In this document: one piece after another, positions 4,091-42,854 of the stretch
How positions within the stretch are numbered: position 1 is the stretch's first letter
How the letters are laid out: each line of letters opens with the position of its first letter
Assembly: GCA_021234155.1 (NCBI GenBank)
Contig: JAJEKV010000013.1
Coordinates: 16,223,877 to 16,287,876 of the forward strand
Source of the DNA: Isoetes taiwanensis
Lineage: Eukaryota; Streptophyta; Lycopodiopsida; Isoetales; Isoetaceae
DNA length: 64,000 nt
Reading direction: 5' to 3'
Made by a program: the position numbers and the translations under genes
The notes under the pieces: model-generated
Seen by the model: the letters and a program-made list of their open reading frames with translations, nothing else
Told to the model about the DNA's origin: nothing
Databases searched by the model: none

Positions 4091-5842
<1,752 letters not shown>

Positions 5843-5915
5843 TTTGGGCACAGAATAGAAAAAAATGAAGGCGGGTTTATGTAGAGAATTGATCGGCGGA
5901 ATGGATGGGAAATCT

Positions 5916-5997
5916 AACGGAGTTAAATTAGGTGTTCAATTTTAAATTTAACGGCTAGGCTCTATTTTCCACTTCAACGGTCTAAAATAATCAACGG
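5916..5997. promoter_or_regulatory. cluster of four AACGG (MSA-type, MYB3R-binding) cores upstream of beta-tubulin
   Basis: AACGG occurs at 5916-5920, 5950-5954, 5976-5980 and 5993-5997, 74-155 bp upstream of the tubulin ATG. Two are in CAACGGT context and one in AACGGCTA context. Plant mitosis-specific activator elements have an AACGG core bound by three-repeat MYB proteins and drive G2/M transcription. That fits a tubulin gene. The assignment is by motif and position only. Confidence 0.5.
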
Positions 5998-10155: not shown

Positions 10156-10160
10156 CCATC
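10156..10160. repeat. 5-bp target-site duplication CCATC, left copy
   Basis: CCATC directly precedes the TG of the 5' LTR and recurs directly after the CA of the 3' LTR (31193-31197). This shows the two LTRs belong to a single insertion event. Confidence 0.9.
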
Positions 10161-11648
10161 TGTGACGTTCCAGCACAGTATACGGTCCCAGGACGTATAT
10201 TGTACTGCCTCGTCACGCGTACACGCCATCCCGACTGACGTGTACGCCGACGTGTAGCCAAGCAAGTAGCACCCTAGGGGGCAACTTGCAAGGTGTGTGC
10301 ATTTATTTATGTGCACATTTATCTAAGTGTACACACTTACCCATGTGGACACTTTATGCCACCTAGTTAATAAAGGCAAGTGGGGCATACCCAATTAGGG
10401 ATAATGGGAAACCCTAGCCCTAACCCCTTGTCTATTTAGGTAAAGGAAACCCTAACTTGCTATTTTCGTCCATAGCATTCTAGGTCTCTGTTTTGCTTGC
10501 TCCAGGAGCCAAACCCGCCTCCCAAACTCTGTCTGAGCGATTTAGCTCATCAGTTTTCCACTTCTAGCTTCATCTTCTAGCAGTTCAGCAGGATGGTTGA
10601 GTTCAGAGCAGGAGGAGCGAGCCAAGGATCGGGTATTTTGTCAATTTAATAGCCTAAACCGCCTCCCAGTCATCTAAGTCTGTGATTTAGATTAGATCTT
10701 GTTCTTTAGTTCTTCTGTGATGTGTATGATGATGTATCTCTGTGGACTCATTGTATTGGGGAAGGGGGGTAGAGACCTTAAAGCCTGGTAGTTGATGCTC
10801 CTAGCTAGCCTCTTTAGCACTTGTAAGCCGGCACGTGTACAAGAGCCACAGGGTTATGGGTGAAGGGGCCGGCCCGGCTCATAAGGAGGTTCATGTCACG
10901 ACTCATGAGAGCGATCCCTCGAGGGTGTGTAAAAGCCTACCGGGGACCCTCGGAGACTAGGTCTAATGGCTTGCCCTTGCTGCGTGTGGGCAAGGCATGG
11001 GCTCACACCAGGTGGAGTGATCGTCACTCTCCATTGGGTTCAAGTCGAATAAGGCGGTGGCCCTCTAGTCACCTTGAGTCGGCATGTAGATCTCGGGAGG
11101 GAGTGATCCCTACCGCCCCCATGGGAATTGGGGAGATGCAACCCGGGAATAGCCCCTTTGGCTATGCATCCCGTGGGGCTACTGGTCGAGGTCCCAACAC
11201 TTTTCAACCCATGCACGCAAAGTGTGCACAGGAGGGGCGGATGGAGTGGACTACCCTAAGCCATGTTTTATGCCAGCCAAATCCATTGCCATGAATTCTG
11301 TCTGCGAACTCTAGAGACCCAAGCTGTCGGTCATCCCCTTTGAGTCTGAGCCTTGGGTAGGATTTCCTCATGTGATGTACTGATCTTTGTCTATGCAGAT
11401 ATGTGATGAGCCATCCTTCGAGATGGTTATGTGATGTTGTTATTGTATACTGACATGTATGTTTACGCTTCCGCAGCTAGGTAGGCCCTGAGGGAGACAG
11501 GGTAAAATGACCCCTTCGTTCTTCCCACTGGAACTCATCAAGATTGCAGTGTTACATGGAGGGCCCTGTATCAGTATGGAGCTGGTATGGGGGATGAACT
11601 CCTGTTCGTATATGGTGAGTGCACCGTATATGAGTAGGGGACGTCACA
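10161..11648 (+). repeat. 5' LTR
   Basis: 1488 bp, TGTGACGTTCC to GGGGACGTCACA, with 7-bp inverted ends. It matches the 3' LTR throughout, apart from about 77 bp missing near 10675, about 15 bp missing near 10397, and scattered differences concentrated at CG/CAG/CTG sites. The apparent 144-codon frame inside it (10860-11294) is not supported by the other LTR. Confidence 0.92.
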
Positions 11649-11649
11649 G

Positions 11650-11661
11650 TGGTATCAGAGC
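11650..11661 (+). promoter_or_regulatory. primer-binding site, initiator tRNA-Met
   Basis: TGGTATCAGAGC lies one base after the LTR end and matches the standard plant retroelement PBS complementary to the 3' end of initiator tRNA-Met. Confidence 0.92.
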
Positions 11662-11856
11662 TATGTTCTTGGTGACCAAGAGCAAAGCACTGACCATGCT
11701 CCCAGTAGTACTAACTTAGTAGGATTCTCAAACCTCGAAAAAGTGAGAAAATTTTTTCTAATTTTTGTAGTATATGCTAAGCTAGTAACAGTTAGGAGAA
11801 TTGAAAAAATAAGCAAAAACTAAAAAGATTGAATAAATTTTGACCAAAAGTAGCAA

Positions 11857-12135
11857 TGTCTCACGGTATGCGCCCAGGCCAAAAACCAACTTTTGGTTTT
11901 GCACCCCAGCGCACACCTTGAGACATGGCCATAATCTCCTTGAAACATGATGAATTTTAACAAACTAACATGCTAAATCGAGTTTTAAGGTAAGAATTAG
12001 TCAGATCTGTATGTTATACCCCTAAGAATATGCCTAGAAATCATATAATTTAGTCAAAAATGCCAAATGTCTCACGGTATGCGCCCAGACCCAAAACCAA
12101 CTTTTGGTTTTGCATCCCAGCGCACACCGTGAGAC
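11857..12135 (+). repeat. hairpin repeats 1 and 2 (promoter A)
   Basis: Two copies of a foldback unit of about 69 bp lie at 11857-11925 and 12068-12135. The outer arms are CTCACGGTATGCGCC and GCGCACACCGTGAG. The inner arms are CCAAAACCAA and TTTTGGTTTTG. Each can form one long imperfect hairpin. They lie upstream of the TATA box at 12238 and are repeated in the same arrangement before the second cassette. Confidence 0.8.
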
Positions 12136-12237
12136 CAATGGGTTAGAAAAGTCAGAAGTAAGCATATGTAATAGATTAATAGGTGTCTTGGCACATCCAA
12201 AAGAGTAACTTGAAATTTGACCTAAAATTGGACAAAC

Positions 12238-12246
12238 TATAAATAG
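12238..12246 (+). promoter_or_regulatory. TATA box A
   Basis: TATAAATAG lies 111 bp before the ATG of the histone cassette. It is followed by a TTTGCTCCCG...GAGGCGATTTTTAAGCGCC leader that is also found, in similar form, after TATA box B. The paired arrangement argues for a real internal promoter separate from the LTR. Confidence 0.6.
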
Positions 12247-12348
12247 ACCTAGACCCCCCTCATTTGTAGACTTCCTGTTTAGAAATTTGCTCCCGCTTTT
12301 TGAGGCGATTTTTAAGCGCCCTAACCTCCGTCGAAGAGTCGTGAGAAC

Positions 12349-13572
12349 ATGGCGAGAACCAAGTGATCGCTTTCGAGGTTCCCGAGGAGATGGAAGGCTA
12401 GCGCCCAACTTCACCGGATATTTCCGAGCCGCCTTCTCCGAGAAGACCAGCCTTCATCGAAAGTGAGGGATTTGTGAGGAGCACCGGGGAAGGATCAGCG
12501 GAAAGCACAGACCGAGAGATAGACCGTGGTAGACCAAGAGGACGTGCACTCTCGGAGGCCTCAGCCAAATGCTCGAGGGAAATAGAGGGCTTACCTACCG
12601 GCTAAATGCGAAAAGTACTTTCGGCGGATAGAAGGAGAAGCAAGGTAAGGGCGAGGAGAGCGTGAGGCAAAGGCGGGACTAAGAGCAGAGGGAGCCGACT
12701 CGAGCCGATCCCCCGAGCCCGACCCCGGAGGAAGAACTCGCGGTCTGGATTCGAAAGCATGAGGCGAAGGAGAGGCGCCGAGAGAAGAAAAGGGCCGAGA
12801 AGAAGAGAAGAAGAAGAAAAAGGGCAAAGCCGCGGAACAGCCCAAGAGAAGAATTAAGAAGACTCCGAAAACGAAGATCGTCATCGAAGAGCGCCCGGCC
12901 GACAAACCAGCCTCGTCGGACGACTCGGATGATGAAGACTTCAACCCTAACCTTGAAGGTGGGAGTTCTTCCAAGCCCCCAGGTGATGAGCAAGGAGATC
13001 AGGAGCAGCCAGAGCAGGTGCAAATGCCCCCGCCCTACCCGACTTGGGATAGGAAGAAACCGCCACGACCTGCCCGGGAATCTTATGTGATAGACCCTAT
13101 CAGGGTCTACCAGAAGAAGCTCAAGGAGCACAATGAATTCATGAAGAAGTGGGAGGCTTACAACTCCTACTATCAGGAGAACAAGGTAACTTTTGTAATA
13201 GGTGGACGGCCATCCAAGAAGCAGACGCTCAAGCCGCCGCCAGATAAGCCGGTTCCTCCAAAGAAGCCAGCGAAAAGGAAAGCCAAGGCCAACCAGAAAC
13301 GAGCACTACGGGAGATTAGGCATTTTCAGCGCAGCTTTGGCTTCCTTATTCCCCGTGCACCGTTCGCCCGACTGGTGAGAGAAGTCATACAAGAGTACAA
13401 CACCGGCATGAGGGTAACGGACGAGATGCTGCTGGCATTATAGGAAGCAACCGAGCAGAAGCTGGTGCAGCATTTTGAAGATTCGACAGCCTGCACTGTA
13501 CATGCTAAGAGGGTAACCTTAATGAAGAAAAACATGCAACTTTCCAGTTACATTAAGGGAGAACCCCAGTAA
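12349..13572 (+). CDS. CENH3 (CENP-A)-like histone H3 variant encoded inside the retrotransposon, with breaks
   Basis: The ATG at 12349 starts MARTK, the N-terminus shared by H3 and plant CENH3, followed at once by TGA (12364). Frame changes follow. From 12763 one frame is open to a TAG at 13441-13443, then on to TAA at 13570-13572. It gives a Lys-rich segment, an acidic patch (SSDDSDDEDFN), a Pro/Lys-rich tail and a complete histone fold (13303-13569). The fold shows alpha-N ALREIRHFQRS, alpha-1 LIPRAPFARLVREV, loop 1 NTGMRV, alpha-2 ending LVQHFEDS, and alpha-3 AKRVTLMKKNMQL. It aligns with H3 without gaps. HFQ, LIP and VTLM are CENH3-like rather than canonical. The TAG sits where H3 has a conserved Gln (CAG). 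The fold has no introns, suggesting a cDNA origin. The protein would replace H3 in nucleosomes, possibly at centromeres; that role is inferred. Intact expression is unproven. Confidence 0.85.
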
Positions 13573-13715
13573 TCTTGTAAATGATAAAATTTTGACTAAG
13601 ACAAACTGTTTAGTTGTAAGTTATATGTGCATAATTGATGTTAATTAGGTTGAATTAGCAACAATTGCACTTTGTTTTAGTAAATTTGGACATTTGTAGG
13701 CCAAGTTGTGCCCAA

Positions 13716-13969
13716 TGTCTCACGGTATGCGCCCAAACCAAAAACCCCTGGTGCACACCGTGAGACCTTCATGCCCAAACTAGTCCAAAACGTCTCCAAA
13801 TCGGCCAAGTAAGGGGTCAATCTTGAATATCTCGATGAGATTATCATGTTTTAACCCTTATTTCACCTTGATTGGATAAGTCTAGATCAAATTAGGGCCA
13901 ATGTCTCACGGTATGTGCCTAGACCAAAAACCAAATTTTGGTTTTGCTTCCTGGCGCACACCGTGAGAC
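13716..13969 (+). repeat. hairpin repeats 3 and 4 (promoter B)
   Basis: Copies 3 (13716-13766, loop shortened) and 4 (13902-13969) of the hairpin described at 11857-12135. They lie between the histone cassette and the second cassette, again as a pair spaced by about 190 bp. Confidence 0.8.
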
Positions 13970-14162
13970 CTTCTAGAAATTTCTCCAACATGCCATACCC
14001 AATTGACCTCTAGTTTGTTGCAATAGGTTCATTAGATAGTCCTAGTCATGCTCAAACCCTCAAATCAGCCTTCCAATCCCCATTTGGACCTCAAGATAGG
14101 TCAGATGTGCTCAACCCCAAGAGTTTTCCAAGTCATCCAAAAATTAGGGTTTTTCCCTTGTT

Positions 14163-14171
14163 TATAAATAG
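14163..14171 (+). promoter_or_regulatory. TATA box B
   Basis: TATAAATAG lies 121 bp before the ATG at 14284. It is followed by a TTTGCTCCCGACC...CTAGGCGATCTTCC leader related to that of cassette A. The hairpin-hairpin-TATA-leader-ATG order matches cassette A. Confidence 0.6.
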
Positions 14172-14283
14172 GCCCCCATTTCTCACTTAGCATCCTACAA
14201 GTTTGCTCCCGACCTCCTAGGCGATCTTCCAGCTCCCTGAGGCGCTTTTGCATCCGTTTGTTAGTCCAATCTCCTCTAGATCC

Positions 14284-15785
14284 ATGGCAACTGTGACTTT
14301 AGGCAATGGGCGGCCAGCTTGTCCATGTAGAGACCGATGTCAATGCCATTTTCCAAGTTTTCCGGAAAGAGATAGATGTCCAAGCCACTCTGCACGCAAC
14401 CCCAGCCTATAGAGAAGTCATGACCGAGTTCCAAGCTAGAGTAGGACCGTCCTTAATGCAGTTCCCCTTGTACAGCTATTTTGTTCCTGTGTCATCCCTC
14501 CAAAGCAGCCTTGGGTGATGTTCCCAACATTGCCAAATATCCACCAACAAGGCTCGAGAGGTTGCCGCACTACATGGTCTTGACCGATTGATAGAACCAA
14601 GTATTTCTCCTACACCGCCTCTAGCAATTTTCCTCTCCCACTGCCCGAGAACCCCATTGGGGAAACCTCCATTCCTCCCATGGATGTAGACCCCTTAGCC
14701 TCCTCGGCGGAAGGTCAACTCCTTTTGCGGTATCTTGAGCAAGAAGGAAGAGCCAAGACGAATCGATGGCGAAGACTACGTCGAGCTTCGACCGAAGAAG
14801 CGCCGACTAGCGAGCGGTGGCATCGGTTTTGAGCGGGGACCGGCGGACACTTCGGGGATCGCTTCCGCTTGGGCTAGGTATCACAAGCCTAGCCCCCCAT
14901 CATCATCGGTGACGAGTACACGCTCCCCTCGGTGACATCAAAACCTCGAATGCGAGGGAAAGGGAGTACCGGCTTGACGAAGTTGTTGCATCTTTGCGGC
15001 AACAACCGGATCTAGATGATTTCATCGTCAGGAACTGACTTCCGATTCGGTGGGAGGCTTCGACACCTACGGAGAGTCGACTTGAACATCCAACCCTCTG
15101 GCTGACATCCGCGATGATGGAAGCTTCGAGACCGACCGAAGAAGAGTTCCCATGCCATCCAAAACGGATGGGGATCCGTGGCAAGACCACGAACATTTTG
15201 ATGAAGTTCGCCGACACCCGATTCCCGTAGAGAAGAGGCTAGATCGACCTCGGGCAAAATCACTTCAACAATAAGAGACTATGGGGAGATCCACCCGCAG
15301 ATTGACGTCCGGCGAATCACGCTAGAAGAAGACCGTGAGCCGGTGGGGCACGACGGCTAATAATCGAATCAGCCAGGCGAGAGGCAGATCACTTTGGTAC
15401 TACCTTCCTCTACCGATGGGCCGGAAGAATAGCGGCCATACACCGCAAGTTCAACCTAAGGGCTTAAGAAGGAGTGTTCATGCTCATCAAGCACTCTCCG
15501 GCTTTGTAGGCATGCTTTCGGCCTCCCAAGGGTCGACCACGTCATCCTAGTCAAGAGAACGATGGCACTTGGCCTCTTCGACCGCCATACCCACCTGCGC
15601 TAGTGGAAGACTAGCAAAGGATCAAGGGCCTATACTTCCAAGCGAGAGGTAGAAGAGGTGGTGCAAGCCTTGCAAAGGCGGGGACATCAACCAACATCCT
15701 CAGGAACTTGGGACGCTCCGTAGGAACGGCCCAAGTTAAGAAGTTTCTTCAGGATAACCCATCCTACCGGCGATTTCAAGAATAG
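14284..15785 (+). CDS. second leader ORF of the retrotransposon, unrecognised protein, frame broken
   Basis: The ATG at 14284 (MATVTLGNG) soon loses frame. The frame from 14306 reads HVETDVNAIFQVFRKEID and PAYREVMTEFQARVG, stops at 14518, and continues one base out as LGDVPNIAKYPPTRLERLPH. Later pieces in other frames include FPLPLPENPIGETSIPP, EEPRRIDGEDYVELRPKKRR and YRLDEVVASLRQQPDLDDF. The last piece ends KKFLQDNPSYRRFQE and TAG at 15783-15785. About 500 codons would be covered. The N-terminal third looks helical and globular; the middle is basic. I do not recognise the family. Its promoter shares structure with that of the histone ORF, so the two may be co-expressed. A histone partner is an attractive but untested idea. 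Confidence 0.5.
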
Positions 15786-15819
15786 TTAGACTCTTGCTCC
15801 CGATATTATACATATATAC

Positions 15820-16560
15820 AAGAAATTTAATGCGTCCTACGGTGCATGTTCGAGTTTTAGCATGTTCCTACGTGCAAGTTCTTGTGAAAGAATCTCTTGA
15901 GAATACTCTAAATTCATAGATTGTCTAAGATTCTACCAAGGTTCTCTTAGAGGGTTCGTGAGCATTTCTCTAAATTTTATAAGATTCCCTCTAGATTCCA
16001 TTAGATTTCCCTAGATTCTCCAAGATTCTATGAAGATCCCCTTAGATTCTCTTAGATTCATTTAGATTTTATGAGATTGCCCTAGGTTCCCTTACATTAC
16101 ATGAGATTCAAAGAGATTCTATAAAGATTCCCTTAGATACTCTAAGATTTCATTAACATTTTCTTAGATTCCTTAGATTTTATGAAGATTCCTTTAGATC
16201 CCCCAGATTTTAAGATATTCCCTTAGGCTTGTAAATATTTTCCTAGATTCTCTTACATTTTATAAGATTTTCTTACATTCTATTAGATTCTTCTGGATTC
16301 CTTTACATCCTAGAACTTTTTAGAACATTCTAAGACTTTCTGGAACATTCTAAGACTTTCAATATATTCTAGAACTTTCTGGAAGTATTTCCCTAGATTT
16401 CTTTACATTCTCGTAGATTCCCCTACATTCTAGAACATTCTAAAACTTATTAGAACAATTTGGAACTTTCTGGAAGAATTTTCTTAGATTCCCCCTAGAT
16501 TCTCTTATGTTCTAGAACTTTCTAGAAGATTCTAGAACTTTCTAGAGCCTTCCAAAACAT
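15820..16560. repeat. degenerate AGATTCC/TAGAACTTTC short-word repeats
   Basis: About 740 bp are composed of imperfect repeats of AGATTCCCTTAGATT-like and CTAGAACATT-like words. There is no coding potential. Related sequence flanks the whole retrotransposon at 9730-9960 and 31508-31625. Confidence 0.6.
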
Positions 16561-16661
16561 TCTAGAAACTTCTTGAACTAGCTAGAATGTTATAGTCTAT
16601 TTTATCTTAATAGGAACATTACCCTTAAGTATATTTGAAAACATAAATTATTTATAGAATT

Positions 16662-16735
16662 AATGCTTGGTCTAGTGGTTAGAATGGGGGGTTGGGGGGT
16701 CAATGTCCAGGGTTTGAATCCTCAACACGACATTA
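16662..16735 (+). mobile_element. tRNA-derived SINE head or degenerate tRNA
   Basis: An A-box-like TGGTCTAGTGGTTAGAATGG (16668-16687) and a B-box-like GGTTTGAATCC (16711-16721) are spaced as in RNA polymerase III promoters. The ends do not pair into an acceptor stem, so it is not a working tRNA gene. A SINE head is the simplest reading. Confidence 0.55.
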
Positions 16736-16779
16736 AAATTTTAAAAGCCTTTTCCTAAGGATGAGCATTCAACTTGGGC

Positions 16780-17405
16780 CGTAGGATCTTGGACTCGATC
16801 AAGGATCGAGATCTTACGCAACATGAGCCATAGGATCTATTACATATCATTCCCAAAGTCATGTGCACCGTAGGATGTGTGCCAAGCCACGTGAGCCGTA
16901 AGATCCTGGATCGACGATCAGGATCGAATCAGCCTGGACCGTAGGATCGATTACATATAATTCCCAAAGCCATGTGCACCGTAGGATGTGTCTCAAAACA
17001 ACGTGAGCCGTAGGATCTCGGACCGACGATCAGGATCGAATCAACCTGGACCGTAGGATCGCGTCTATACGAATTATATATAAACTCCCAAGTCATCTGG
17101 GCCGTAGGATAGTCCCAAAGCTACGTGAGCCGTCGGATTTCGAATGGACGGTCGGATAAGTGCGACAAACATAAGAACATATATAAGCGACAAACAAACT
17201 CCCAAGCCATCGGGCGTAGGATACGTCCCAAAGCCCGCGGAGCCGTTCGGATCTCCGGATGGGCCGGTCCGGATAAAGCGACAAACATAAGAACATATAT
17301 AAGCGACAAACAAACTCCCAAGCCATCGGGCAGTAGGATACGTCCCAAAGTTAACGGAGCCGAGGGATCTGGATCAACGGTCGGATTGAGTGTTACAAAC
17401 ATAAG
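16780..17405. repeat. tandem repeats around a 'gtgaGCCGTAGGATCt' word
   Basis: The word (G/A)CCGTAGGAT recurs every 50-60 bp. In the right half a longer unit of about 115-120 bp recurs at about 17150, 17271 and 17385; it contains CAAACATAAGAACATATAT. It is satellite-like and noncoding. The short open frames here are products of the repeat. Confidence 0.7.
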
Positions 17406-17419
17406 AACATATATATGTT

Positions 17420-17478
17420 ATGATATGATATGATATGATATGATATGATATGATATGATATGATATGATATGATATGA
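17420..17478. repeat. (TGATA)n microsatellite
   Basis: About 11 perfect TGATA units directly follow the tandem repeat block. Confidence 0.95.
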
Positions 17479-18066
17479 AATCTTTTGCAATCAGAATGTT
17501 TTGGGTTGCCCCGGGGCAAGCCCCCTTGTTGATATTGGGTTTATGGCATATTCTCGGTATATGTCAAGATATAAATCGAGGAATATGCCAATGATTTGCT
17601 AAAAACTTCCCTACGAGTGTAAACTGGGCGGTCGCGGGTCGTATTTGTTCTTGTGAAACTATTTTCGCAACCGGCTAACCGGATTCTACAATCATTTTCT
17701 TCTTGTTCTTCTACAAGGTGTCTCTAGTTCCCGATTGGTGGACTTACAATACAGTAATAAGGGCATATGGATGTGTTGGGGGCCGAATCGGTGCGTATTT
17801 TTTTAAGGAGATGCATCAGCCGGAACTTTGTCTTCGATAAGGTAAGTTATGTTAATTTGATATTCGCCGAGCGGTGGGAATCTTCTTGAAGCGGCCCGCC
17901 TCATGTCGTCTCGCTTGTTTACTCATGCCGCGTCTTTGAAGTGCATTATAATGAGGATTGTGTAATAGAGGTTATTTGGCATCTAAGGATCCCGAACAAC
18001 ATGTAGGCATTGCGGATGACGAGGCTTTGTGGTGGTGGTCTTCACTCTGTGTTCAGTTTACTACAG

Positions 18067-19680
18067 GGTAAACTAAATGGACTTGAATCTGAGATGAAGA
18101 TAGCAAGACAATGCCTCCAGGAAACCAAAGAGGAAAATCACAGGTTGGCTGAATATATTGCTACATCTGAGATGGAGTCAAAGTCAATAAAGCAAACGAA
18201 CTCTGAGCTAAATCATCAGTTGGAAATATTGAAGATGGAAAATGCTTGTGAGAGAAACAAATTTGAAACTGAACTGAGTGTTATTGGAGAGCAATTGGAT
18301 GAAGCTGCAAACCAATTTGCAAGTATGAAATTACTTTTGCAGCACTTAGAAGAAGATAAGCACATGCAATCAGAGTTTCTCGTGCTTGTAAGCTTATGAT
18401 GATTTTGCAACTATTAAGGGAATAGTACAACGCAATGCCAGTTAAAAATGGGTCAGAAGGGATGGAGAATGTTGCGGTTATTCCATCTATGGTAACGAGT
18501 AACTATAAAAATGTTCCATTTGCGTGCAATCCAGAAACTTTGTTAGTTGATTTGTTAAACTCTATAGATGCAACTACGCATTGATGCAAGCATTAGTAGT
18601 CCGTAAATGATCCAAGCTCATCTTTTTGAAAGTTTTTGCAATAGATTTTGATCGTGATACAAGGAGGTTATTGATCATGCAATGAGTTTGCGAGGAACGG
18701 CTTTCCTCTGCACTTTCCAAACTAGAGCAATCTAATCTCGATATTCAGGAGCATGTCAGAGAGTATGGAACTTTAAAGGAGGAGAAGGAACAGGAACTAA
18801 GTGAATTGTATAGGCGTGTACAAGTTACATGCATGCGTCAGCTTGATTATCGGTCCGGGGTTGAAAGATTGTCCTTTTGAAATCTCGCCAGATTATCATC
18901 GAAAAAAGAGAATTCACAGTTGGACTGGTAGAAACCGAACAACAAAGACTCTCCACAACAAGGGGAGAAATTGAGCCTAGGCTATCCAATAAAGGGAAGG
19001 GATCGTTCTTGTTGGGGGCGCATTGAAACGAGCTTTTTAAAAGACAAATCGAGAACAATCGGAATTATTAAAAGTTGAGCTTGAAGGAAAGAGAACAATT
19101 TAATTTGGAACTCTGAGAATATATGAGAGAGGTTTGCGGTCTCTTAGTGAGAGATGGTGGCATTCGCGAAAAGATTACCTCGCTTCGGCAAAGTGTGAAT
19201 GCTATTGAAAGGTTGAAGGAAACCATCTTGGAATATCAGATATTATCGGACATTGATGCTGATGCACCATCATCACTTGTAGACAAAGTTTCTTTCTTTC
19301 TGAGGGATTCCCATGAAGCAAAGCAAAAATTAGCTGAGATGAAGCAGCAGATGGAAGTTACTAAACAACTTGTTAAGTCTCTCCTACTTGAAATGGAGAA
19401 CGAAATTGGTAATCTTGAAATTATTGAAGAAGGAGATGGTTCTGCTTCCAAACTTATTGATTTGCTGCAGAGTGTGGTGATAAGGTTAGTGAATTGAGAA
19501 ATCAAAATGTTTTGTTTGGTCAGTTTTTGCTTAAGGCCTTGGAAGGTGAAGGTGTTGAGATTGTGGAAATAGCAGAGAATGATTGTCCTTTGGGAGAGCC
19601 TGGTTATGATGGAAGTACTCTCCTTTGCTGGGTCTTAGTTGATCCAAACTGCAAACATGGATTTATAAGGTACTGCTGAT
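18067..19680 (+). pseudogene. captured or nested fragments of a long coiled-coil protein gene
   Basis: An exon-like block (18067-18389, acceptor TACTACAG, donor GTAAGC) encodes a continuous coiled coil with heptads such as LNGLESEMKIARQ and FASMKLLLQHLEED. More coiled-coil segments follow: around 18690-18840 (ALSKLEQSNLDIQEHV), 19123-19497 (KLAEMKQQMEVTKQLVKSL) and 19475-19679 (GQFLLKALEGEGVEIVEIA, frame shifted). Introns are retained, so this is genomic host sequence rather than cDNA. The composition resembles plant kinesin or golgin-type tails, but no motor or other diagnostic domain is present. Stops and frame shifts between blocks suggest a decayed fragment carried inside the retrotransposon. 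Confidence 0.5.
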
Positions 19681-20827
19681 CAAAATTTGTCTCTATAAGA
19701 GATGCAAAGCCAAATGCCATTATTGCGTTGTGAGCAGTTTTTTTAACAAATAGGACACCTGAAACTTCCCAAAATTTGTATACAGAGCACATCAGTTGCG
19801 TGGGTAGGGCATCATAACAATCGAAGAATTCTCTCATTTATAGCGCGCACCATCATGAGTCATGACAGTTTCTAGAAGAAATTTGCCTGGTCTAAATTTA
19901 TAGAGCATGCCAATCTATGAGTTTGGCAAGTGCAAGCCAGTAGAAATTATCGGCACATGATGATAAGATTTCATGGGTAACATCATTACAGTTTCATGCG
20001 GTTAATGCACACTGTAGAACAAAGTACAACTCTGTCATTGAAAATAACCATCAAGCATTCTGCTACCTTGTCAAGAGAAAGATTTTTTAGTTTGATAATT
20101 GTGAGGTTGCTTGATGAAGTGTAGTGGCGTGTTTGCTAGGTCCATCCTCAAAAAAAGAGCTTTGGTCTTATAAGATTCCAGGCCTTTTTTGATAGCTATT
20201 GGCAGGTTGCTTTAGCAGCTAGTGCCTTTGTTAGGATTCTTTCAAATTTCTTCTAGCTTTTCGAAATTGCAACTTCTTTTTTCTTTTTGTCGGTCATTTT
20301 GACTTCAACAAGAATCTGTATATAGCAAGATCAATATATTGCCGGCCAAGAGCCAAGGCGGAATCAAAAGCACTATTTATCAATGGGTTTATCTTTGATG
20401 AGTTATCGCTGCCGTTGTTCTTTACGCAATTGAATGCTTGCGCATAGTTCAAGGTGCTCGTATTTTTGATCCAGGCCCAAGGGGCAAGGCATTTTATGAG
20501 GAAGCTTTGGAGCGAAAGTTTTTCTGAGACAATGGCTGGCCTCGACAATGTGCTTCTTTTAACAGCCGGATGAGGTATTTTCCCTTTCTACAACGCATTA
20601 TAACAATGTAAACCACTTGGCTATTGTCTTTGGTAATTCTTCCCTGGACCTTGTACAATTGTTGTTCTTCCACTATGCACATATTTGATGCTTGGGGACT
20701 TTGTGCTAACTTCTGACTTTTCTTTTTTTCCCTTTGGTGACATCAATGCGTATATTGATATTGCGGGCTGAAATATTGACGGGCATATCTAATCAATTTG
20801 GTCGTGAGAGGTACTTTTGACAAGAAG

Positions 20828-20923
20828 CAAATGTCTGAGAATGGGTCATTATCAAGTTGGTTGCCACAGGCTGTTTTGATGACAACATCGAGGTGGTACC
20901 ACAAACATGTTCGAGGGTTTAAG
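20828..20923 (+). pseudogene. isolated exon-like segment
   Basis: A 32-codon open segment (NGSLSSWLPQAVLMTTSRW, then YHKHVRGFK) ends exactly at a strong donor AAG|GTAAGTG. It may belong to the same host gene as the coiled-coil fragments upstream or to another one. I do not recognise it. The rest of 19681-22700 shows no convincing coding sequence. Confidence 0.3.
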
Positions 20924-22704
20924 GTAAGTGTAAGTGTAGTTTAAATTGCAAGTGGGTTATTGGAAAAGCTGAGCGGGTATGCTAAAGGTTATATTCGTCA
21001 AGTTGATGTTGTGAACCTGATGGAGCTGCGGTGATAGTTTTGCAGCGGCGGCTGTTCTGGGCTACACATAACACGAATATTACAACCACCCTTATGCTAG
21101 CTAATGCGATTAAGCCATTTGCCATACCGAGTTGAGGAGCTGGCCGCAATGTGGCCACTTTAAAAAAATGTCTTTACTTCTATCAATCCAAACCTCAAAA
21201 GAGTGTATAAATGGCGAGAAATTTTTGTTGGTAAGCATGAAGGTGTCTTGGCGGTTTAGGTGAAGGCGATGTGAGATCTTTGCCATGAGTGCTTTGAACA
21301 GGAAGCCTCAGATTTTGTGAACACAGAATTTAACCTTAAAAGCACATTTCAAACAGATAGTCCCATGCAAATGCACGAGTCTGTTTAAGGCAGTTCTCAA
21401 AGCAAGCTTCTTCAATAGGATTGCTAATTTATGCCTAGTTTCTCATGGCGACTCATTTATAAAGGCCTATTATAAGGAGTGCATTGATAACTTTCTTGGC
21501 TAGCTTTCCAGATTAAGGGATAGGTCCTTACACGTAATGTGCTCCTTTGGAGCAACATTGACGGAAATTCGAAAAGGTACTTATACTTTTGGATTATTGT
21601 GGTTCAAAGGGAGTGGATAAAATTTCCCTAGCATATCACATATTAAGAAGAAGATTTGCTACTAAGGAATCATGCTTTTCTACCTTAAAACTGTGGGAAT
21701 TTTACTAGATATGATGCAGATGAGAGACAATTTGGATGATTTGCGAGGATCGCAGGAGAGGTAGTAGCTTAAGCATCAGCAATTCTTTATGAAATTGTAT
21801 TTATTAAATTCTCTATTTGGTCATTGCATCACACATTCTTCTCAATATTGGCCTTGCAAGTTCTTATGGCTTCATTGTAGAGGGCGACTACAAAAAACAA
21901 TGCATTTGAGGACACAATTTATGTACAAGACTTCTTACCTTCTATACTAGTTGGAGATTGTTTAGAAAAACTTGCATAAAGAATTTCACTTTTCTTTTTT
22001 GAACAAAACTAAAAACTAAATTCTTGTATTTGAGTTTTTGTAGAAAAACTTGATATAAATGTGATTAAAATGACATCATTAAAAGATAAAGATAAAAAGT
22101 TTAACGTTCACAGTTCACAGAGACCTTACCTTTGGACCATGGATCACGATTGTTTCTTTAGGTTTAATGTTTGTATATGAGAACATTCTTCTGTATCAAC
22201 AAGGGCCATCTTTTTTTAACATGAAAACGGCTCTCCTAGTTAATGGTGCGAGGATCCTTTGAAAAAAATCCAGAAACCATTGTGAGATTTCGTTGAAGGT
22301 TCTCGTAGAAGACAACTTGTTTGAAGCATTTGCAAGTTCTACTCTGTCGTTGAGGGCAAATCTAGGCGACCTCTCTTCAAGCGAGACGGTCAGGATGACC
22401 TTCCGTTCCCAATGCAACCTGCATTCGGGCTCTCTATGATATATTAGCTTTGCCCCTTAGTTTTCAGTGCAACCTGCATTCTGAGGCTCTGCGTATAAAG
22501 GAAAGGCCCTTGAGAACATTTTACGGACAGGCCAAAAACAGCCCAAGGGGCCTTTGGCCCCTTATAAAGTTGGCTTATTAGCTGAATTTTGGAGTAACAC
22601 TTTTTTATATGGTGGCGTGGCGGAATATACGCTAAGCCAACTTTTAGTTACAAAAGCGAACTAGATCCTAGATCCAAAAGCGCGGGGGTTGATGTTTGTT
22701 GTAC

Positions 22705-22830
22705 TTGAACAAAGCAATCATGAAAATGCTTTCTGAGAAGGGGACCAGCTATACGAGAATCGTTAAATATCATCTGACTCATTTGGTCCCTGACAATAGA
22801 CTCAACCTCAAGAGAATTCTGATCATAAAA
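22705..22830 (-). pseudogene. class III peroxidase exon fragment
   Basis: Read on the minus strand, 42 codons run from FYDQNS through ESIVRDQM to LLRKHFHDCFVQ and then an intron donor GTAC. Secreted plant peroxidases have FY..SCP..E.IVR at the mature N-terminus and LLRxHFHDCFVQ with the distal catalytic Arg and His. Their first intron commonly falls right after this Gln, as here. The Cys-Pro normally following the FY segment is missing (SLEV instead of SCPxA), and no signal peptide or later exons were found. It is a fragment, probably captured host DNA inside the retrotransposon. Confidence 0.7.
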
Positions 22831-22839
22831 GCCTATGGG

Positions 22840-23450
22840 GAAAGCACATCTCCTCGCAATTCGGGACGACATAAAACCCCATCGGGTATGAACCCTCCCA
22901 TGGTGCAACAGCGACAATGTTGTCGTCGAAGTCCTGGATGTTCTCATGCTGCATATTCCACAGTAGAGTCTGTCCCACATGCGCTGGATCATGATCATCC
23001 CTGTTAGGCCCCGCACCATCTAGCTCGAGGACTGTGCATTGATCGTTAAACTGTGTAGCCCATTCTTCGTTCACCTTGATGCCTGCTTCCACATACAGGG
23101 GCTGCTTGTGAAGGTAGTGCACAGCTTGCATCACGGCAGTTGGATTCACTGGTCCTTCCAATACGGGCATGTGTCTGCCATTTTTTTTTCAGTTGCAGCC
23201 TAATTGACGCATGGCCGTCGCTGAGCCTGGGTAGTGCGACATGTATTGCTTCAACGTTTGATGCAACATGAATAACAGACCCGTGCAACTTGTTCTGCCC
23301 AACCCATTGGTCTGATAGCGCTATTCTCGCAAAGGGTATCCTCATCGATACCAATCTCTCTTCCAAGTCTGTGAGTGACCTCCGCGGTTCCGTCTTGCAT
23401 TCATTCCTATGCGTCTGGGATTCTTCATAAATTGTTTCGTATGTTATCAA
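22840..23450 (-). pseudogene. unrecognised minus-strand coding remnant
   Basis: Two overlapping minus-strand frames read like one protein with a single frame shift near 23170. The first (from 23450) contains SLTDLEERLVSMRIPFARI; the second (23170-22823) contains NPTAVMQAVHYLHKQPLYVE and IVAVAPWEGSYPMGFYVVPN. The composition is protein-like, but I do not recognise the family. It lies directly upstream of the peroxidase fragment on the same strand, so the two may have been captured together from one locus. Confidence 0.35.
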
Positions 23451-23970
23451 GTACTCCCATGTATATCATCCTATTAATAAACTCATAGTTTCAGGTACTC
23501 TGTTGTCTAGAAGTAGCAATTTGAATTGATTGTCAAAACATAACTTTCAACTACGATTTAAGCCACTTCACAAAACATGTATTTCCATTCTCTCCTCTAT
23601 TACACTTTTCCTTATGCTTATGCCATCCTAGTTCCATACCAAGCACCAAACACCAATACGTTGCACTCAAACCCCAAAGTCCATGTGTCCACCTGGATCC
23701 TAGTCCAACAAGAGCTCAATATCTAAGGAGAAGTTAGTGATGCAAATGGGTACCATCACCTTCACAAAATGTCAATGTTTTAAAATAGCAATTTCGATTC
23801 AAATACTCTATTGTCTACAACTATGCCTTAAGCCACTTCACTCTCCGGCCATGGAGGGCAACCCTTCGTGCGCAGCACCTTGTTGTTGATGTATCTTGTT
23901 CCACAACTATACCAACAAACACATATAATGCAAATAGAACAAATAAAGCTAACCATAAGGCCATGATCTA
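23451..23970. other. noncoding, nothing recognised
   Basis: AT-rich sequence between the minus-strand remnant and gag. No promoter, repeat boundary or splice pattern could be supported. Confidence 0.4.
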
Positions 23971-23973
23971 CTT

Positions 23974-25205
23974 GTGTATGCAGCTAGAGGTCCAGGCACA
24001 GCTGAACAAGAACGGCGAGCCCGTAGGGATGAACAGACTTCGCCCAGACCGCACCCGGCAAGGAACCTGTATGAAGCATTTGGTCCCATGACTCCCGAAG
24101 AGGAGATGTCGCAGATGAGAACAGACCTTGATCAGATAAAGGCACTTTTGGCAGCACAAGCAGGAGTTGGCCCAGACAACAACGCCCAGTTGCTGCAGGC
24201 ACCATCTCGGAAGGCGAAGGATAAGAGGAAGAGCAAGAGAAGGAGGTCCCCCAGCACATAATCCTCTGACTCAAGCTCGGATTCGGACTCTGATTCCGAG
24301 GAAGAGGCAGAACAGGTGCAGGACCGTAGGGATAGTAGACCCAAAGACACAAGGGCCTCGGACTATCGGAAGAAAGGTAGACAGGTGGCTGGGTAATGTA
24401 TGGAAGGCCAGAAAGCTTGAGCAATTCTCAGGCGACAGCAGATCAGGCATGGAAGCGGAGGCTTGGCTAGACGAGATGAGTGAGTATGGCAAGCTTATAG
24501 CATGAAGGATAAGGACAAAGGCATGGTAGCAACGCGACCAACCTCAAGGGCGGCTTCGCATTTGGTGGAAAGGCTACGCCAAAGGCCTATGGGTTGAACG
24601 AGGGGCGATTGCGAGGTTCAAAAAGTTTGTTTAAGGCTTTCAAAGCGCCATTATGTACCGGGAACATAAGTGTCATATGATGCGGCCGGTTTCACCCATT
24701 CTTGCCGGAACCTTGAAGCGATCTGATGCAAGTACGGAGGAGTTCATGAGGCTTAGGTTGTATGTGCCAAAAGCCCGGCGAGCGCCCCTTGATGAAGGCT
24801 ACATCGAGGACTCAATGAGGGAGATAAGGAAGGCTGGTAAAAGCAATCAACCCTCGAGCGATGCTCGGAATCAAAGGCGATAAGCTTGCAAGGGAATGAG
24901 GGCCTCGTTGCAATGGGCCGAACTTGGCGGCACTATCGGGATAAGGGCAAGGCAGCGAGGAAGCTATAGCCCTAGGCGGCTAGCCAGTCAGTGAAGGCTC
25001 CATATAGCGGCAACTATGGGAAGCGGCGGAGAAAAGCCGAGGTGTCCTTCAAGGACAAGCGAGGAGGGGTCAAACTACTCCCAAAGCGGTCGCGGTCCTT
25101 TTGCAAGCAATGTCCAAGGAGAAGAAGCGGGGAGTGCATAAAGCGACTTTTAGCAGGTGCTTCCAGTAGAGCCCCGCGAAACGTGACTGCCCCTTCGTCA
25201 TGAGT
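23974..25205 (+). CDS. gag: Ty3/gypsy gag polyprotein, frame broken
   Basis: The structural capsid protein region. Pieces appear in successive frames: an N-terminal helical segment (PMTPEEEMSQMRTDLDQIKA), a Lys/Arg-Ser-rich linker, the capsid start KLEQFSGDSRSGMEAEAWLD at about 24415, a mid-capsid piece around 24650-24880 (STEEFMRLRLYV), and a basic C-terminal region with CKQC at about 25100 where a CCHC zinc knuckle is expected. The rest of the knuckle is not readable. At least four frame shifts separate the pieces, mostly near CG-rich or CAG/CTG sites. It lies 12.3 kb from the PBS, far more than the few hundred bases usual for gag. Confidence 0.75.
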
Positions 25206-25288
25206 GCAGCATTAGCGGAGTTGGGTGGATGGGACACTCCGTCTGACAATGACGGCGAGGCAGCACACGACTTCATTCAGGGTGAGTG

Positions 25289-25879
25289 TCACATTTTTGC
25301 TGCCATAGATCGGAACAAGCGAAAAAAATCGATGCTCGGGTAATCTCCACAGTAGGAAAGGCCAAAACCAAGTCATTCACAATCCTGATAGACTCGGGAA
25401 GTAGCCACAACTTTGCATCCCCAAGAATGGTTGAGATGTTGAAGCTAAAGCCGTTGAAGTCGAAGCCAAGACCCGTGGTGTTAGCAAGTGGAGCAGTAAG
25501 ACACACGGCAGGCAAGAGAATAAACTTCGACATTGACTTGCCAGGGATCAACATCCAGATGGGGGCAGAAGTGATGGGTATCGGGAAGTACGACTTGATC
25601 ATAGGAATGGAGTATCTTGGACTAGCAGGGGCCATCATTGATTGTGGGAAGCGGAAGGTGACCCTCACAGCGCCCAACGGCAAAATCATAGAGATTACAG
25701 GTAAAGAAGTTATTCCCATCATGCAGTGTATGTCTAGTAAGCAGCTGCTCAAGTGCATAAAGAGCGAGCAGATAGCATATATCTTCAAGCTTCAGCTCGA
25801 AGAGCCTGAGTCAGAAGAAAGCAAGGAAGATAAGGTGCTCAGCAAGTTGCCAAAGCAGATAGCTAAGTTGATTCACTGA
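25289..25879 (+). CDS. pol-PR: retrotransposon aspartic protease
   Basis: A 197-codon open frame contains the active-site motif LIDSGSSHNF, a conserved GAVRHTAGK loop, and a C-terminal DLIIGMEYLG that matches the (I/L)LG(M/R)D(W/F)L position of retropepsins. It cleaves the Gag-Pol polyprotein inside the particle. This is the best-preserved pol domain in the element. It ends at TGA 25877-25879, just before the RT connection. Confidence 0.85.
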   Translation, partial: SHFCCHRSEQAKKIDARVISTVGKAKTKSFTILIDSGSSHNFASPRMVEMLKLKPLKSKPRPVVLASGAVRHTAGKRINFDIDLPGINIQMGAEVMGIGKYDLIIGMEYLGLAGAIIDCGKRKVTLTAPNGKIIEITGKEVIPIMQCMSSKQLLKCIKSEQIAYIFKLQLEEPESEESKEDKVLSKLPKQIAKLIH

Positions 25880-26039: not shown

Positions 26040-26480
26040 TCGACCTAGGCTTCATTAGACCTAGCGTCTCACCATTTGGGGCACCCATTCTTTTTGTGAA
26101 GAAGGCGGATGGCGGCTTGATGATGTGCATAGATTATGGCGGTGAACAAGCACACCATCAAGAATAAGTTTGCACTCCCGGATCGGACGACTTGATGGAT
26201 CAACTCCAAGGGGCAAAAGTCTTCTCCAAAATTGACCTAAGGTCGGGCTACCATCAAATCAGGATCAAGGAAGAAGGCGTCCACAAAGCGGCTTCGGGAC
26301 CCGGTATGGGCATTACGAGTTCCGCGGTAATGCCATTTGGTTTATCAAATGCCCGGCTTAGCGTTCATGAGGCTCATGAGCGACATCTTCGAGGAGTTCT
26401 TGGATACTTTCATGATAGTATTCTTTGGCGATATTACGGTGTATAGCGGATCCACGGAAGAACACGCGTACAACACCTAA
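26040..26480 (+). CDS. pol-RT: reverse transcriptase domain, frame broken
   Basis: Recognisable blocks are [25 protein letters not shown], then [20 protein letters not shown] and YHQIRIKEE (first catalytic Asp), and VMPFGLSNA. The second catalytic region reads FFGD where gypsy RTs have F(F/A)DD, so one catalytic Asp appears as Gly. Short deletions fall between MCIDY and the NKHTIKNK segment and again before DDLMD. The enzyme copies the RNA genome into cDNA. As sequenced it cannot be functional. Confidence 0.85.
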
Positions 26481-27427: not shown

Positions 27428-28360
27428 GTGAAGAAGTTGATTCTACACGACACCCACAACAGCCCAATAGCTGGCCACGCAGGATTTATGAAGACATATT
27501 TCAAAGTCATAACAGCTATTATTGTAGAATGAAGAAGCGGTGCTTCGCTACATCAAAGAGTGTCGGTATTATTCGTGACGAAGGTAAAGCGACTTAATTC
27601 GGGAGCATTGGAACCTTTAGCGATCTTGCGAGCGTGGACTTCATAACGGGGCTCCAGAAGGGCGGTAAGAGGGAAAGATGCCTTGATGGTTGTGGTCGAC
27701 AAGTTGTCGAAGATGGCACACTTGTGCCTTGCAGGACCACCGACACAGCTATGGATACAGCGAAGCTCTTAACCAAAGAAATCTTCAGGTTCCATGGTAT
27801 GCCAAGAGAGATCATCTCCGACAGAGACCCGAAGTTCATAAGTGCCTTTTGGCAGGACCTCCTTGCGACGATTCAGACGAAGTTGTCCATGAGCACAGGC
27901 TATCATCCTCAGACGGATGGGCAAACAGAGCGGACCAACAGAATTTTGGAGGATATGCTACGAAACTATGTCTGGAACAAGCAGAGTATGTGGGAAGAGT
28001 ATATTCACTTGGTGGAGTTTGCGTATAATAGCACCAAGCAAGAATCATCCCAAATGGTCGCCATTTATGATCAACTACGGCTACCAATGTCTAACTCCAG
28101 ACACTTGGCACAATCCTGTGTCAAAAGTAGAGGTTTCGCAGCAAATGTTGGCCGACATGCGGCGGCGGTGGTGGAAAGAGGATGAGGATATCTTCTTGCG
28201 GCGCAAGGAGTCAACAAAAGGCGTCGTAGACAAGCATCGGACAGTCAGAGAGTTCCAAGTTGGCGACGACGTGTGGCTCAAGATCAAAGTGAAGCAGGCA
28301 AAGCTCCGCATCGGAAATTGTAAGAAGCTTGCTCCAAGGTGAGCTGGACCCTTCAGAATA
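27428..28360 (+). CDS. pol-IN: integrase domain
   Basis: The HHCC zinc region begins LILHDTHNSPIAGHAGFMK (two His); its Cys pair is not readable. The core retains all three catalytic acids: Asp in DFITGL (27634), Asp in IISDRDPKF (about 27811) and Glu in ERTNRILEDML (about 27930). The STGYHPQTDGQ motif is present. The C-terminal part continues in another frame (VGDDVWLKIKVKQAKLR). It inserts the cDNA into the genome. Confidence 0.85.
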
Positions 28361-28390
28361 GTCAGGAGAGTAGGTAATCAATCCTATAAG

Positions 28391-28732
28391 TTGGACCTAC
28401 CAGCACACCTAAAGATTCATAAAGTCTTCCACGTGAGTTTGTTGAAGAAGCATACTTCCAATCCAGACGAAGTCTTGGACACTCCAACGTTGTTGGAAAT
28501 AACAGAAGAGCAGCTGGAGATAGTTCCAGAATTGATTCTTGATAAAGCCTTCAAGAAAACAAGGAGATCAGAGTTTCTCCAATATTTAGTCAAGTGGAAA
28601 CACTTGCCGGTGGAAGACGCGACATGGGTACTTAAGAAGGATCTAATAAAGCAGTACCCCCAGTTTATGGAGCAATGGGACGGCAAGGTCATCTTCGAAG
28701 AAATCGGCTCAGACATGTTGATTTGTATTTAG
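28391..28732 (+). CDS. pol-CHD: integrase C-terminus with chromodomain
   Basis: An open frame to TAG (28730-28732) encodes HKVFHVSLLKKHTSNPDEV and then the chromodomain-like block FLQYLVKWKHLPVEDATWV followed by KKDLIKQYPQFMEQW. This is the usual C-terminus of plant chromoviruses. In related elements the domain reads histone marks and steers integration to heterochromatin. It matters here because the same element also carries a histone H3 variant. Confidence 0.85.
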   Translation: MDLPAHLKIHKVFHVSLLKKHTSNPDEVLDTPTLLEITEEQLEIVPELILDKAFKKTRRSEFLQYLVKWKHLPVEDATWVLKKDLIKQYPQFMEQWDGKVIFEEIGSDMLICI

Positions 28733-29611: not shown

Positions 29612-31192
29612 TGTGACGTTCCAGCACAGTATACGGTCCCAGAACATATACTGTACTGCCTCGTCACGCGTACACGCCATCCCGACTGACGTGTACGCCG
29701 ACGTGTAGCCAAGCAAGTAGCACCCTAGGGGGCAACTTGCAAGGTGTGTGCATTTATTTATGTGCACATTTATCTAAATGTACACACTTACCCATGTGGA
29801 CACTTTATGCCACGTAGTTAATAAAGGCAAGTGGGCCATACCCAATTATCCCACATGCTTAAAGGGATAATGGGAAACCCTAGCCCTAACCCCTTGTCTA
29901 TTTAGTTAAAGGAAACCCTAACTTGCTATTTTCATCCATAGCATTCTAGGTCTCTGTTTTGCTTGCTCCAGGAGCCAAACCCGCCTCCCGAACTCTGTCT
30001 GAGCGATTTAGCTCATCAGTTTTCCACTTCTAGCTTCATCTTCTAGCAGTTCAGCAGGATGGTCGAGTTCAGAGCAGGAGGAGCGAGCCAAGGATCAGGT
30101 ATTTTGTCAATTTAATAGCCTAAACCGCCTCCCAGTCATTGAATAAGTAGGTTTAGCCTATTAAATTGCCCATAGCAGCCATCTAGATCCCTAGATATCG
30201 AGCCCTAACTAAAGAACCTAACTCTGTGATTTATATTAAATCTTGTTCTTTAGTTCTTCTGTGATGTGTATGATGATGTATCTCTGTGGACTCATTGTAT
30301 TGGGAAGGGGGGGTAGAGACCTTAAAGCCTGGTAGTTGATGCTCCTAGCTACCCTCTTTAGCACACTGTAAATTCGGCCTGTGTACAAGAACCACACCGG
30401 GTTGTGGGTGAAGGGGCCAGATTGGCTCATAAGGAGGTTCATGTCCTGACTCATGAGAACGATTCCTCTGGTGTGTAAAGCCTACCGGGGACCCCTGTAG
30501 ACTAGGTCTAATGGCTTGGCACTGCATGTGGGCAAGGCATGGGCTCGACACCCGTGGAGTGATGCGTCACTCTCCATTGGGTTCAAGTCGAATAAGGGCA
30601 GTGGCCCTCTAGTCACCTTGAGTCAACATGTAGATCTCCGGAGGGAGTGATCCCTACCTGCCCCATCGGAACTGGGGAGATGCAACCCAGGAATAGCCCC
30701 TTTGGCTATGCATCTGGTGGGCTACAGTCAGGTCCCAACACTTTTCAACCCAATCTGCAAAGTGTGCACAGGAGGGGCGGATGGAGTGGACTACCCTAAG
30801 CCATGTTCTTATGCCAGCCAAATCCATTGCCATGAATTCTGTCTGCAATGAACTCTGGAGACCCAAGCTGTCGGTCATCCCCTTTGAGTCTGAGCCTTGG
30901 GTAGGATTTCCTCATGTGATGTACTGATCTTTGTCTATGCAGATATGTGATGAGCCATCCTTCGAGATGGTTATGTGATGTTATTATTGTATACTGACAT
31001 GTATGTTTGCGCTTCCGCAGCTAGGTAGGCCCTGAGGGAGACAGGGTAAAATGACCCCTTCATTCTTCCCACTGGAACTCATCAAGGTTGCAGTGTTACG
31101 TGGAGGGCCCTGTATCAGTATGGAGCTGGTATGGGGGATGAACTCCTGTTCGTATACGGTGAGTGCACCGTATATGAGTAGGGGACGTCACA
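29612..31192 (+). repeat. 3' LTR
   Basis: 1581 bp, TGTGACG to CGTCACA. It is longer than the 5' LTR because it keeps segments missing there, notably the one around 30140-30220. Outside those gaps the two LTRs are very similar, so the insertion is fairly young. Confidence 0.92.
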
Positions 31193-31197
31193 CCATC
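31193..31197. repeat. 5-bp target-site duplication CCATC, right copy
   Basis: Matches 10156-10160. Removing the element rejoins GACATCCCATC with TTAGCTCC. Confidence 0.9.
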
Positions 31198-36600: not shown

Positions 36601-36679
36601 TGCAGCATCCTCTACAAATCCAACCTTAGAAAGGTATTGATCCATTATTCCTGCTTTAGTTTCTGTGCACTTAGTGAAC

Positions 36680-39909: not shown

Positions 39910-40198
39910 CTAGTTATCACTATCTGACAACATTCATTCTGATCTAAGTATTCAAGTCTGTGCATGTGTGATAAGCATACTTGATTTAAGACTTCAAATA
40001 AGTAGAGCCTGCACAATGATCCTTGCATGTTCAGCCCTGTATAATCTCTTTGTATCAGACTATCTACTTACTTATTTATTAGACTACCTGTACTTATTTA
40101 AACTTACATAAATGAACCATTTCTTGAATACAAAGACACAAAGAATAACTTGAAACTTTCAGCATATCAGATTATCGAGGAATATCCACACCTATTAC

Positions 40199-40350: not shown

Positions 40351-40410
40351 CTATTCTCTTCTCCTACAAAGAGAAGAATAATATATAATCATATTTATAA
40401 AAAAGTTACT

Positions 40411-42850: not shown

Positions 42851-42854
42851 AGTC

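Follow-up and report, generated by a model that had tools for sequence, protein, structure and literature searches.

A maintained H3-type histone gene in Ty3/gypsy chromoviruses of Isoetes taiwanensis

Background

Whether a mobile element that carries a histone gene keeps it as a gene of its own is the question raised by a 64,000-nucleotide stretch of the Isoetes taiwanensis genome (contig JAJEKV010000013.1, positions 16,223,877 to 16,287,876; hereafter the window). A preliminary description of this stretch had claimed that a CENH3-like histone H3 variant is encoded between the primer-binding site (PBS) and gag of a Ty3/gypsy retrotransposon, and had suggested a role in centromeric chromatin. 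Histones encoded by parasites are known from viruses, among them giant DNA viruses and, for H4, bracovirus. The elements described here resemble these in being parasites with a core histone of their own and differ from them in kind, as those are DNA viruses and, to our knowledge, no retroelement is among them.

Results

The chromovirus in the window

The LTR retrotransposon in the window is a 21-kb Ty3/gypsy chromovirus at 10161-31192, complete in outline, with an LTR pair, a target-site duplication, a PBS and a polypurine tract all present (Table 1); the PBS TGGTATCAGAGC is presumably of the initiator tRNA-Met type. Protease, reverse transcriptase, RNase H and integrase follow in this order and end in a C-terminal chromodomain, RNase H being recognised by eye and by similarity to a sister element, and the pol frame of this copy has many breaks. 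In the chromodomain, read by eye, the tryptophan of KWK is kept and the first and last cage places, which we take to be those known from HP1, are non-aromatic; by eye it is therefore of type II, with two of the three cage residues missing.

The gap of about 8 kb that separates gene 2 from gag was rejected as an original feature of the element, as gag starts at most 470 bases from gene 2 in 25/25 other copies showing both. The intervening DNA is a foreign, nested insert, probably of Helitron type and perhaps a gene-capturing one; it contains a DUF6570 fragment (E 1e-4, 23.2 bits vs a cut-off of 24.3), a domain that we assume to be a Helitron companion; a peroxidase fragment lies in the same insert (E 4e-4, below cut-off).

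Elsewhere in the window, the clearest host gene is a tubulin gene at 4091-5935 (-), with Tubulin_C at E 1e-40 and a start that reads by eye as beta-tubulin. A tandem duplication of 10.46 kb (36599-47041 vs 47060-57543) is 91% identical, with many small indels and several 300-base stretches at 100%. Positions 54772-64000 hold about three head-to-tail copies of a unit of about 3.18 kb with decayed ORFs (RT-like by eye); these units differ mainly by short indels, apparently clustered around CNG sites, perhaps through nanopore assembly error.

Table 1 Coordinates of the chromovirus, its two-gene cassette and the nested insert in the window
Feature	Position	Strand	Evidence or remark
Target-site duplication CCATC, left	10156..10160	.	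Read directly; identical 5 bases after 3' LTR
5' LTR, start TGTGACGT, end ACGTCACA	10161..11648	+	blastn vs 3' LTR, two pieces, 95.1% and 92.6%
Primer-binding site TGGTATCAGAGC	11650..11661	+	Read in sequence
Palindromic hairpin 1, upstream of H3-like gene	11856..11926	+	z -6.7
Palindromic hairpin 2, upstream of H3-like gene	12067..12137	+	z -9.6
TATA-like box TATAAATAGACC, H3-like gene	12238..12249	+	1 of 2 exact TATAAATAGRCC matches in window
H3-like gene, decayed: MARTK and stop, linker with stops, fold, final stop	12349..13572	+	ORF reading
H3 histone fold, one in-frame TAG at 13441-13443	13303..13569	+	phmmer and Pfam
Hairpin 3, upstream of gene 2	13715..13768	+	z -6.8
Hairpin 4, upstream of gene 2	13901..13971	+	z -8.0
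TATA-like box TATAAATAGGCC, gene 2	14163..14174	+	Other exact TATAAATAGRCC match
Gene 2, decayed here	14284..15785	+	tblastn with L027 protein spans 14330-15782
Nested foreign insert, approximate limits	15786..23900	.	DUF6570 fragment, peroxidase fragment, coiled-coil ORFs
gag, decayed, approximate limits	23950..25270	+	ORF pieces by eye; same peptide after gene 2 in other copies
Protease piece	25286..25876	+	Pfam RVP_2 E 4.5e-10, above cut-off
Reverse transcriptase piece	26168..26443	+	RVT_1 E 4e-6, below cut-off
Integrase piece	27598..28182	+	rve E 6e-6, below cut-off
Integrase C-terminus with chromodomain	28343..28729	+	Chromo E 1.4e-10, above cut-off
Polypurine tract AGGTGGGGAGAA	29600..29611	+	By eye
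3' LTR	29612..31192	+	blastn vs 5' LTR
Target-site duplication CCATC, right	31193..31197	.	Read directly

A decayed H3-like gene between PBS and gag

The claim that an ATG with MARTK and, further on, an H3 fold lie between PBS and gag holds: MARTK at 12349-12363 is directly followed by TGA, and the fold shares its frame. Against PDB H3 chains the fold scores 83.7 bits (phmmer, E 7e-23), free of gaps over residues 1-87 of 89, that is, from alphaN to the C-terminal end, and Pfam Histone is above cut-off on either side of the internal TAG. With stops after codon 5, at several places in 12349-12762 and once in the fold, and with an open piece at 12763-13440, the window copy is a pseudogene; as other copies show, the gene product is one long protein (414 aa in the single fully open copy) with a start of H3 type. 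The gene is free of introns, as had been described, which fits capture through cDNA. The canonical H3 N-terminal tail is absent, as the window's family keeps residues 1-8 only and then runs into a linker.

Copies in the genome

The genome searched comprised 1,658,258,908 bases in 1110 contigs; the assembly is published as 1658.30 Mb in 204 scaffolds and 909 contigs, built from nanopore reads (flow cell v9.4.1) with polishing, in a paper whose main text has the word 'histone' 0 times (PMC8566536). Since this is a nanopore assembly, some of the stops and frameshifts may stem from errors in it, in which case open copies may be undercounted.

A DNA search with 13018-13572 as query returned 2318 candidates, the best 40 of which were scored (83-100% match; the window and L009-L047) and are thus selected by similarity in the H3 gene. 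The H3 fold was matched in all 40, and the family layout is an H3-like start, a linker of about 310 aa and the fold. A fully open frame of 414 codons from the MAR start was found in one of these copies, L010, a deletion derivative in which gene 2 and gag are both incomplete and end before an LTR. Among the 32 alignable, ungapped starts, a count that omits 8/40 copies including the window's own, MARTKQTAR is exact in 18 and MARTKQTARVPR occurs in 13; the Lys4 codon is identical in 32/32, and Thr3 and Arg8 are each kept in 31/32, with synonymous changes around them. Lys9 is replaced in the window's family. At the protein level, the genome search gave 8541 candidate places; in the best 150, a best-first ranking that favours intact copies, 132 were stop-free in the fold and 18 had open frames of at least 400 aa, two of these 18 with a stop in the fold. 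The 150 places are spread over many contigs. An H3 gene unique to the window locus was rejected by the 40/40 copies and these 150 places. In L016 a second, decayed H3 fold lies beside the first (L016:5640-5906, match orientation; 46% identical, 4 stops), from which it follows that more distant members exist.

Selection on the histone gene

Rates of substitution were compared for the 32 of the 40 folds that were ungapped (22 of them stop-free; 8 gapped or partial folds were omitted), in 496 pairs. The dN/dS of the fold was 0.10 as the ratio of mean dN to mean dS, and by rising dS class it was 0.40 (dS <0.1, 5 pairs), 0.34, 0.18, 0.15, 0.11 and 0.085 (dS >0.7, 218 pairs). By region, the ratio was 0.12 in the fold, 0.26 in the linker and 0.30-0.46 in gene 2, where it climbs to 0.47-0.55 among distant pairs and may be inflated by frameshifted stretches; the gene-2 values thus speak weakly for constraint, or are an artefact of frameshifts. 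Mean variability by codon position was 0.095/0.060/0.270 in the fold vs 0.21/0.24/0.20 in the noncoding DNA just 3' of it, a codon-phase bias in the fold that the adjacent DNA lacks. In a quick tree all 22 stop-free folds fall into a single clade (SH-aLRT 100) whose stem is long; therefore the divergence of the fold arose inside the element lineage, and the window's family is poorly explained by a conserved host H3 that was captured repeatedly.

A chance match and a simple host H3 retrocopy were both rejected, given the score of the fold, its presence throughout the family and dN/dS. The preliminary description had asked whether other elements of the genome carry the gene, and had named as refuting outcomes the absence of the ORF from other members and a recent host retrocopy at this single locus; the fold is found in 40/40 scored copies, selection kept the gene, and neither outcome turned up. 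Judging from the pattern of substitution, the histone gene is almost certainly a maintained, element-encoded H3 and not a dead capture.

A second gene with repeated upstream sequences

Downstream of the H3 gene lies a gene of about 500 aa, gene 2, which has an open frame in L018 (511 aa) and L027 (502 aa); the L027 protein had no match in Pfam or PDB. In the 6-kb stretches taken around the 40 copies, an upstream LTR/PBS was seen in 31, gene 2 in 36 and gag in 25, L025 being entered as a miss in this architecture count though its fold was matched elsewhere; the order H3 gene, gene 2, gag held in 25/25 copies showing all three.

In the window a TATAAATAG-type box precedes each cassette gene, and these are the sole two exact TATAAATAGRCC matches there, though with two mismatches the pattern is no commoner in the window than by chance. 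The leaders after both boxes are weakly similar (72% over 43 bases, E 0.003), and each cassette gene has two copies of a long palindrome. Across the 40 copies, the box (at most 1 mismatch) precedes the H3 gene in 22 and gene 2 in 34, and the two-armed palindrome occurs in 32. No palindrome was found under the same pattern in L028, L030, L031, L033, L035, L036, L044 and L046, in which the H3 gene is present and the gene-2 box is found in 8/8. The palindrome is kept as sequence: in the first 60 of 83 distinct units, 94% of cells are paired and 8 are double-changed, a result that speaks for sequence conservation and not for an RNA fold, and RNA-level covariation of the hairpins was left unsupported.

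The kind of H3

The residues on which the CENH3-like assignment had been based, HFQ (alpha-N), LIP (before alpha-1) and VTLM (alpha-3), are indeed present in the alignment. However, the start MARTKQTAR is canonical, and in comparison with 14 database rows loop 1 and the C-terminal end have the length of H3, with neither the extra loop-1 residue of the plant CENH3 rows nor the RW...EAL motif. When the window piece was searched against 5.8 billion proteins, the best 120 of 926 matches were histone folds only; the best was pomegranate CENH3 (50% identity), and many of the 120, plant and fungal, are named CENH3. A longer query from the decayed window copy retrieved no annotated whole-protein relative, with 1 weak match among 770 candidates. 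A careful tree of 57 rows groups the window's family, on a long branch, with plant CENH3 at 94/89 (unstarred), whereas a quick tree of 143 rows places it outside plant CENH3, and a single clade of window-family and sister-family folds was not rejected (AU p 0.337). The CENH3 label is therefore unproven as it was given.

Window-family folds are identical to host H3 at 45-49 of 87 positions (8 folds compared; 49/87 in the window type) and belong to a fused protein under selection, so they are not host-like captured H3 of the kind seen in fungal hAT elements. The window-type fold is changed against host H3 at 109, 111 and 129, positions that we take to lie near the H3-H3' face. Compared with plant CENH3, several fold residues are alike, while the length of loop 1 and the C-terminal end are H3-type and the start is canonical. 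The fold may have arisen from CENH3, from an H3.3 that changed fast, or by replacement.

A sister family with an H3.3-type fold

A search of the genome with a fern CENH3 fold (P0008) was scored for the best 150 of 8083 candidates. Host CENH3 was not found among these 150, the places being H3-like; the first 15 resemble host canonical H3 (two read, L048 and L049), frames reach 400 aa or more in 40, and a stop interrupts the match in 12. Ten loci of a second kind of H3 fusion, picked for long frames or higher identity, were read, nine with a whole fold and one (L052) with the fold cut. They join a new N-terminal domain, for which Pfam gave nothing above cut-off in the two loci scanned, to a charged linker and an H3.3-type fold; the L058 fold has an H3.3 chain as its best PDB match and is identical to host H3 at 77/87 positions. 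Compared with plant H3.3, the fold of this family is thus alike and the tail is replaced by the new domain and linker. The dN/dS was 0.031 in the fold (19 usable pairs) and 0.139 in the N-terminal domain (23 pairs), with 19-27 of 45 pairs usable and mean dS near or above 1; host H3.3 captured again and again could account for part of the low values, although the N-terminal domain is also at 0.139.

A K9-like motif, KSTARKSG, is kept in 4/10 sister loci, and a PBS of the same sequence as the window's lies upstream in 4/10. One sister element was followed downstream: it has a weakly matching relative of gene 2 (27-37%, two collinear pieces, E 2e-6 and 1e-4) and then protease, reverse transcriptase, RNase H, integrase and chromodomain 32-74% like those of the window element. 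A further open frame of 152 aa, with no Pfam match, follows the gene-2 relative (L060:1727-2182, -). As far as their sequences tell, and with one sister element followed downstream, an H3 gene occupies the same position in two related chromovirus families, which probably share the same partner gene.

Discussion

Our results suggest that these elements may manage their chromatin with a histone that they themselves encode. The window element is a member of a high-copy group of related Ty3/gypsy chromoviruses with an accessory two-gene cassette (an H3-type gene and gene 2) in the interval between PBS and gag. We propose that this cassette places an H3 surrogate on element DNA, perhaps against silencing; we rate the chances of this proposal as about even. 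The element H3 would pair with host H4 and enter nucleosomes on the cDNA or new insertions of the element. Such entry seems rather probable to us, with uncertainty because the fold matches host H3 at 49/87 positions and is changed at 109, 111 and 129. As the start in the window's family keeps the Lys4 segment ARTKQTAR, with Lys9 replaced and the rest of the tail turned into a linker, nucleosomes of this kind could receive the active K4 mark and not H3K9 methylation, and H3K9me-dependent silencing would be blunted. That escape from silencing is the main benefit is plausible, though we would lean slightly against it, and loss of K9 is no rule, because the K9-like motif is kept in 4/10 sister loci. 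Still more doubtful, if attractive, is a complete chromatin system in which the element H3 and gene 2, perhaps a chaperone or loader, would act from their own promoters to build element-specific nucleosomes on new copies that host silencing could not mark.

Other uses of the protein have to be weighed against this proposal. If the element H3 marked the chromatin of existing copies and the integrase chromodomain bound this H3 or a host tail mark, insertion would be directed to self-marked, permissive sites; the integrase does end in a chromodomain, type II by eye, and both the window element and the single sister element traced downstream combine it with the H3 gene, but the window's family has another residue in place of K9, which would be the one read by a type I cage, and we consider such targeting unlikely. 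Because the partners of type II chromodomains are described as not identified (PMC6317226), the element H3 may be one of them. It is very improbable that a CENH3-type histone takes the element into centromeric chromatin or disturbs it there: the HFQ, LIP and VTLM residues, the CENH3 names of the best match and of many of the best 120 of 926, and the 94/89 grouping would favour this, but loop 1 without the insertion common to plant CENH3 rows, the canonical-type start, the quick 143-row tree and the spread of the 150 scored places over many contigs point the other way, and a centromeric role is not the economical reading because the sister family carries an H3.3-type fold.

As a basic histone-fold protein with a highly charged linker and fold, encoded ahead of gag in the same element, the protein might act outside host chromatin and condense the RNA or cDNA of the element within its particle or pre-integration complex; retention of the H3 1-8 segment, irrelevant to condensation, and the CCHC knuckle that gag itself has (by eye, L005) make this improbable. 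The same segment, kept ahead of a long foreign linker, is what histone mimicry would predict, with the protein staying outside nucleosomes and its H3-like start occupying host tail readers or writers; we give this little credence, as a decoy has no need of the fold, the most constrained part (0.12 vs 0.26 in the linker). Finally, many copies are broken, the window's included, as expected if H3 cDNA had been captured once and copied along without function, yet this is hardly credible, being contradicted by the dN/dS of 0.10, by a codon-phase bias absent from adjacent noncoding DNA and by H3 genes in two families. The preferred reading thus remains an H3 surrogate on element DNA.

In the open-licence literature searched, no LTR retrotransposon was found to be described as encoding a histone. 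Fungal hAT DNA transposons that carry histone H3 are described from Pseudocercospora fijiensis and relatives (PMC6710886) and from Pyrenophora tritici-repentis (PMC3538342), the H3 copies being RIP-inactivated in P. fijiensis and 23 of them potentially functional in P. tritici-repentis. As there, an intron-free H3 coding sequence has been multiplied by a mobile element; unlike those DNA transposons with a host H3, the present elements are retrotransposons of two families, with a second gene and with an H3 that is fused, diverged and under selection within the element. Orchid Ty3/gypsy elements are likewise reported to have acquired a host-type domain, which is an m6A RNA demethylase and not a histone (PMC9289625). 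With plant chromoviruses as described (PMC6317226), the window element shares protease, reverse transcriptase, RNase H, integrase, chromodomain, PBS and LTRs, and it differs from them in having two extra genes upstream of gag, a histone gene among them.

Should the protein be incorporated into chromatin, a transposon would here be altering the nucleosome itself and not its marks or readers. If true, it would become testable how mobile elements escape H3K9-based silencing and what type II chromodomains bind, and also whether host H3 and CENH3 evolve under the pressure of element-encoded rivals. Given the scale, with the best 150 of 8541 and the best 150 of 8083 places scored, H3 annotation and histone proteomics in I. 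taiwanensis need care.
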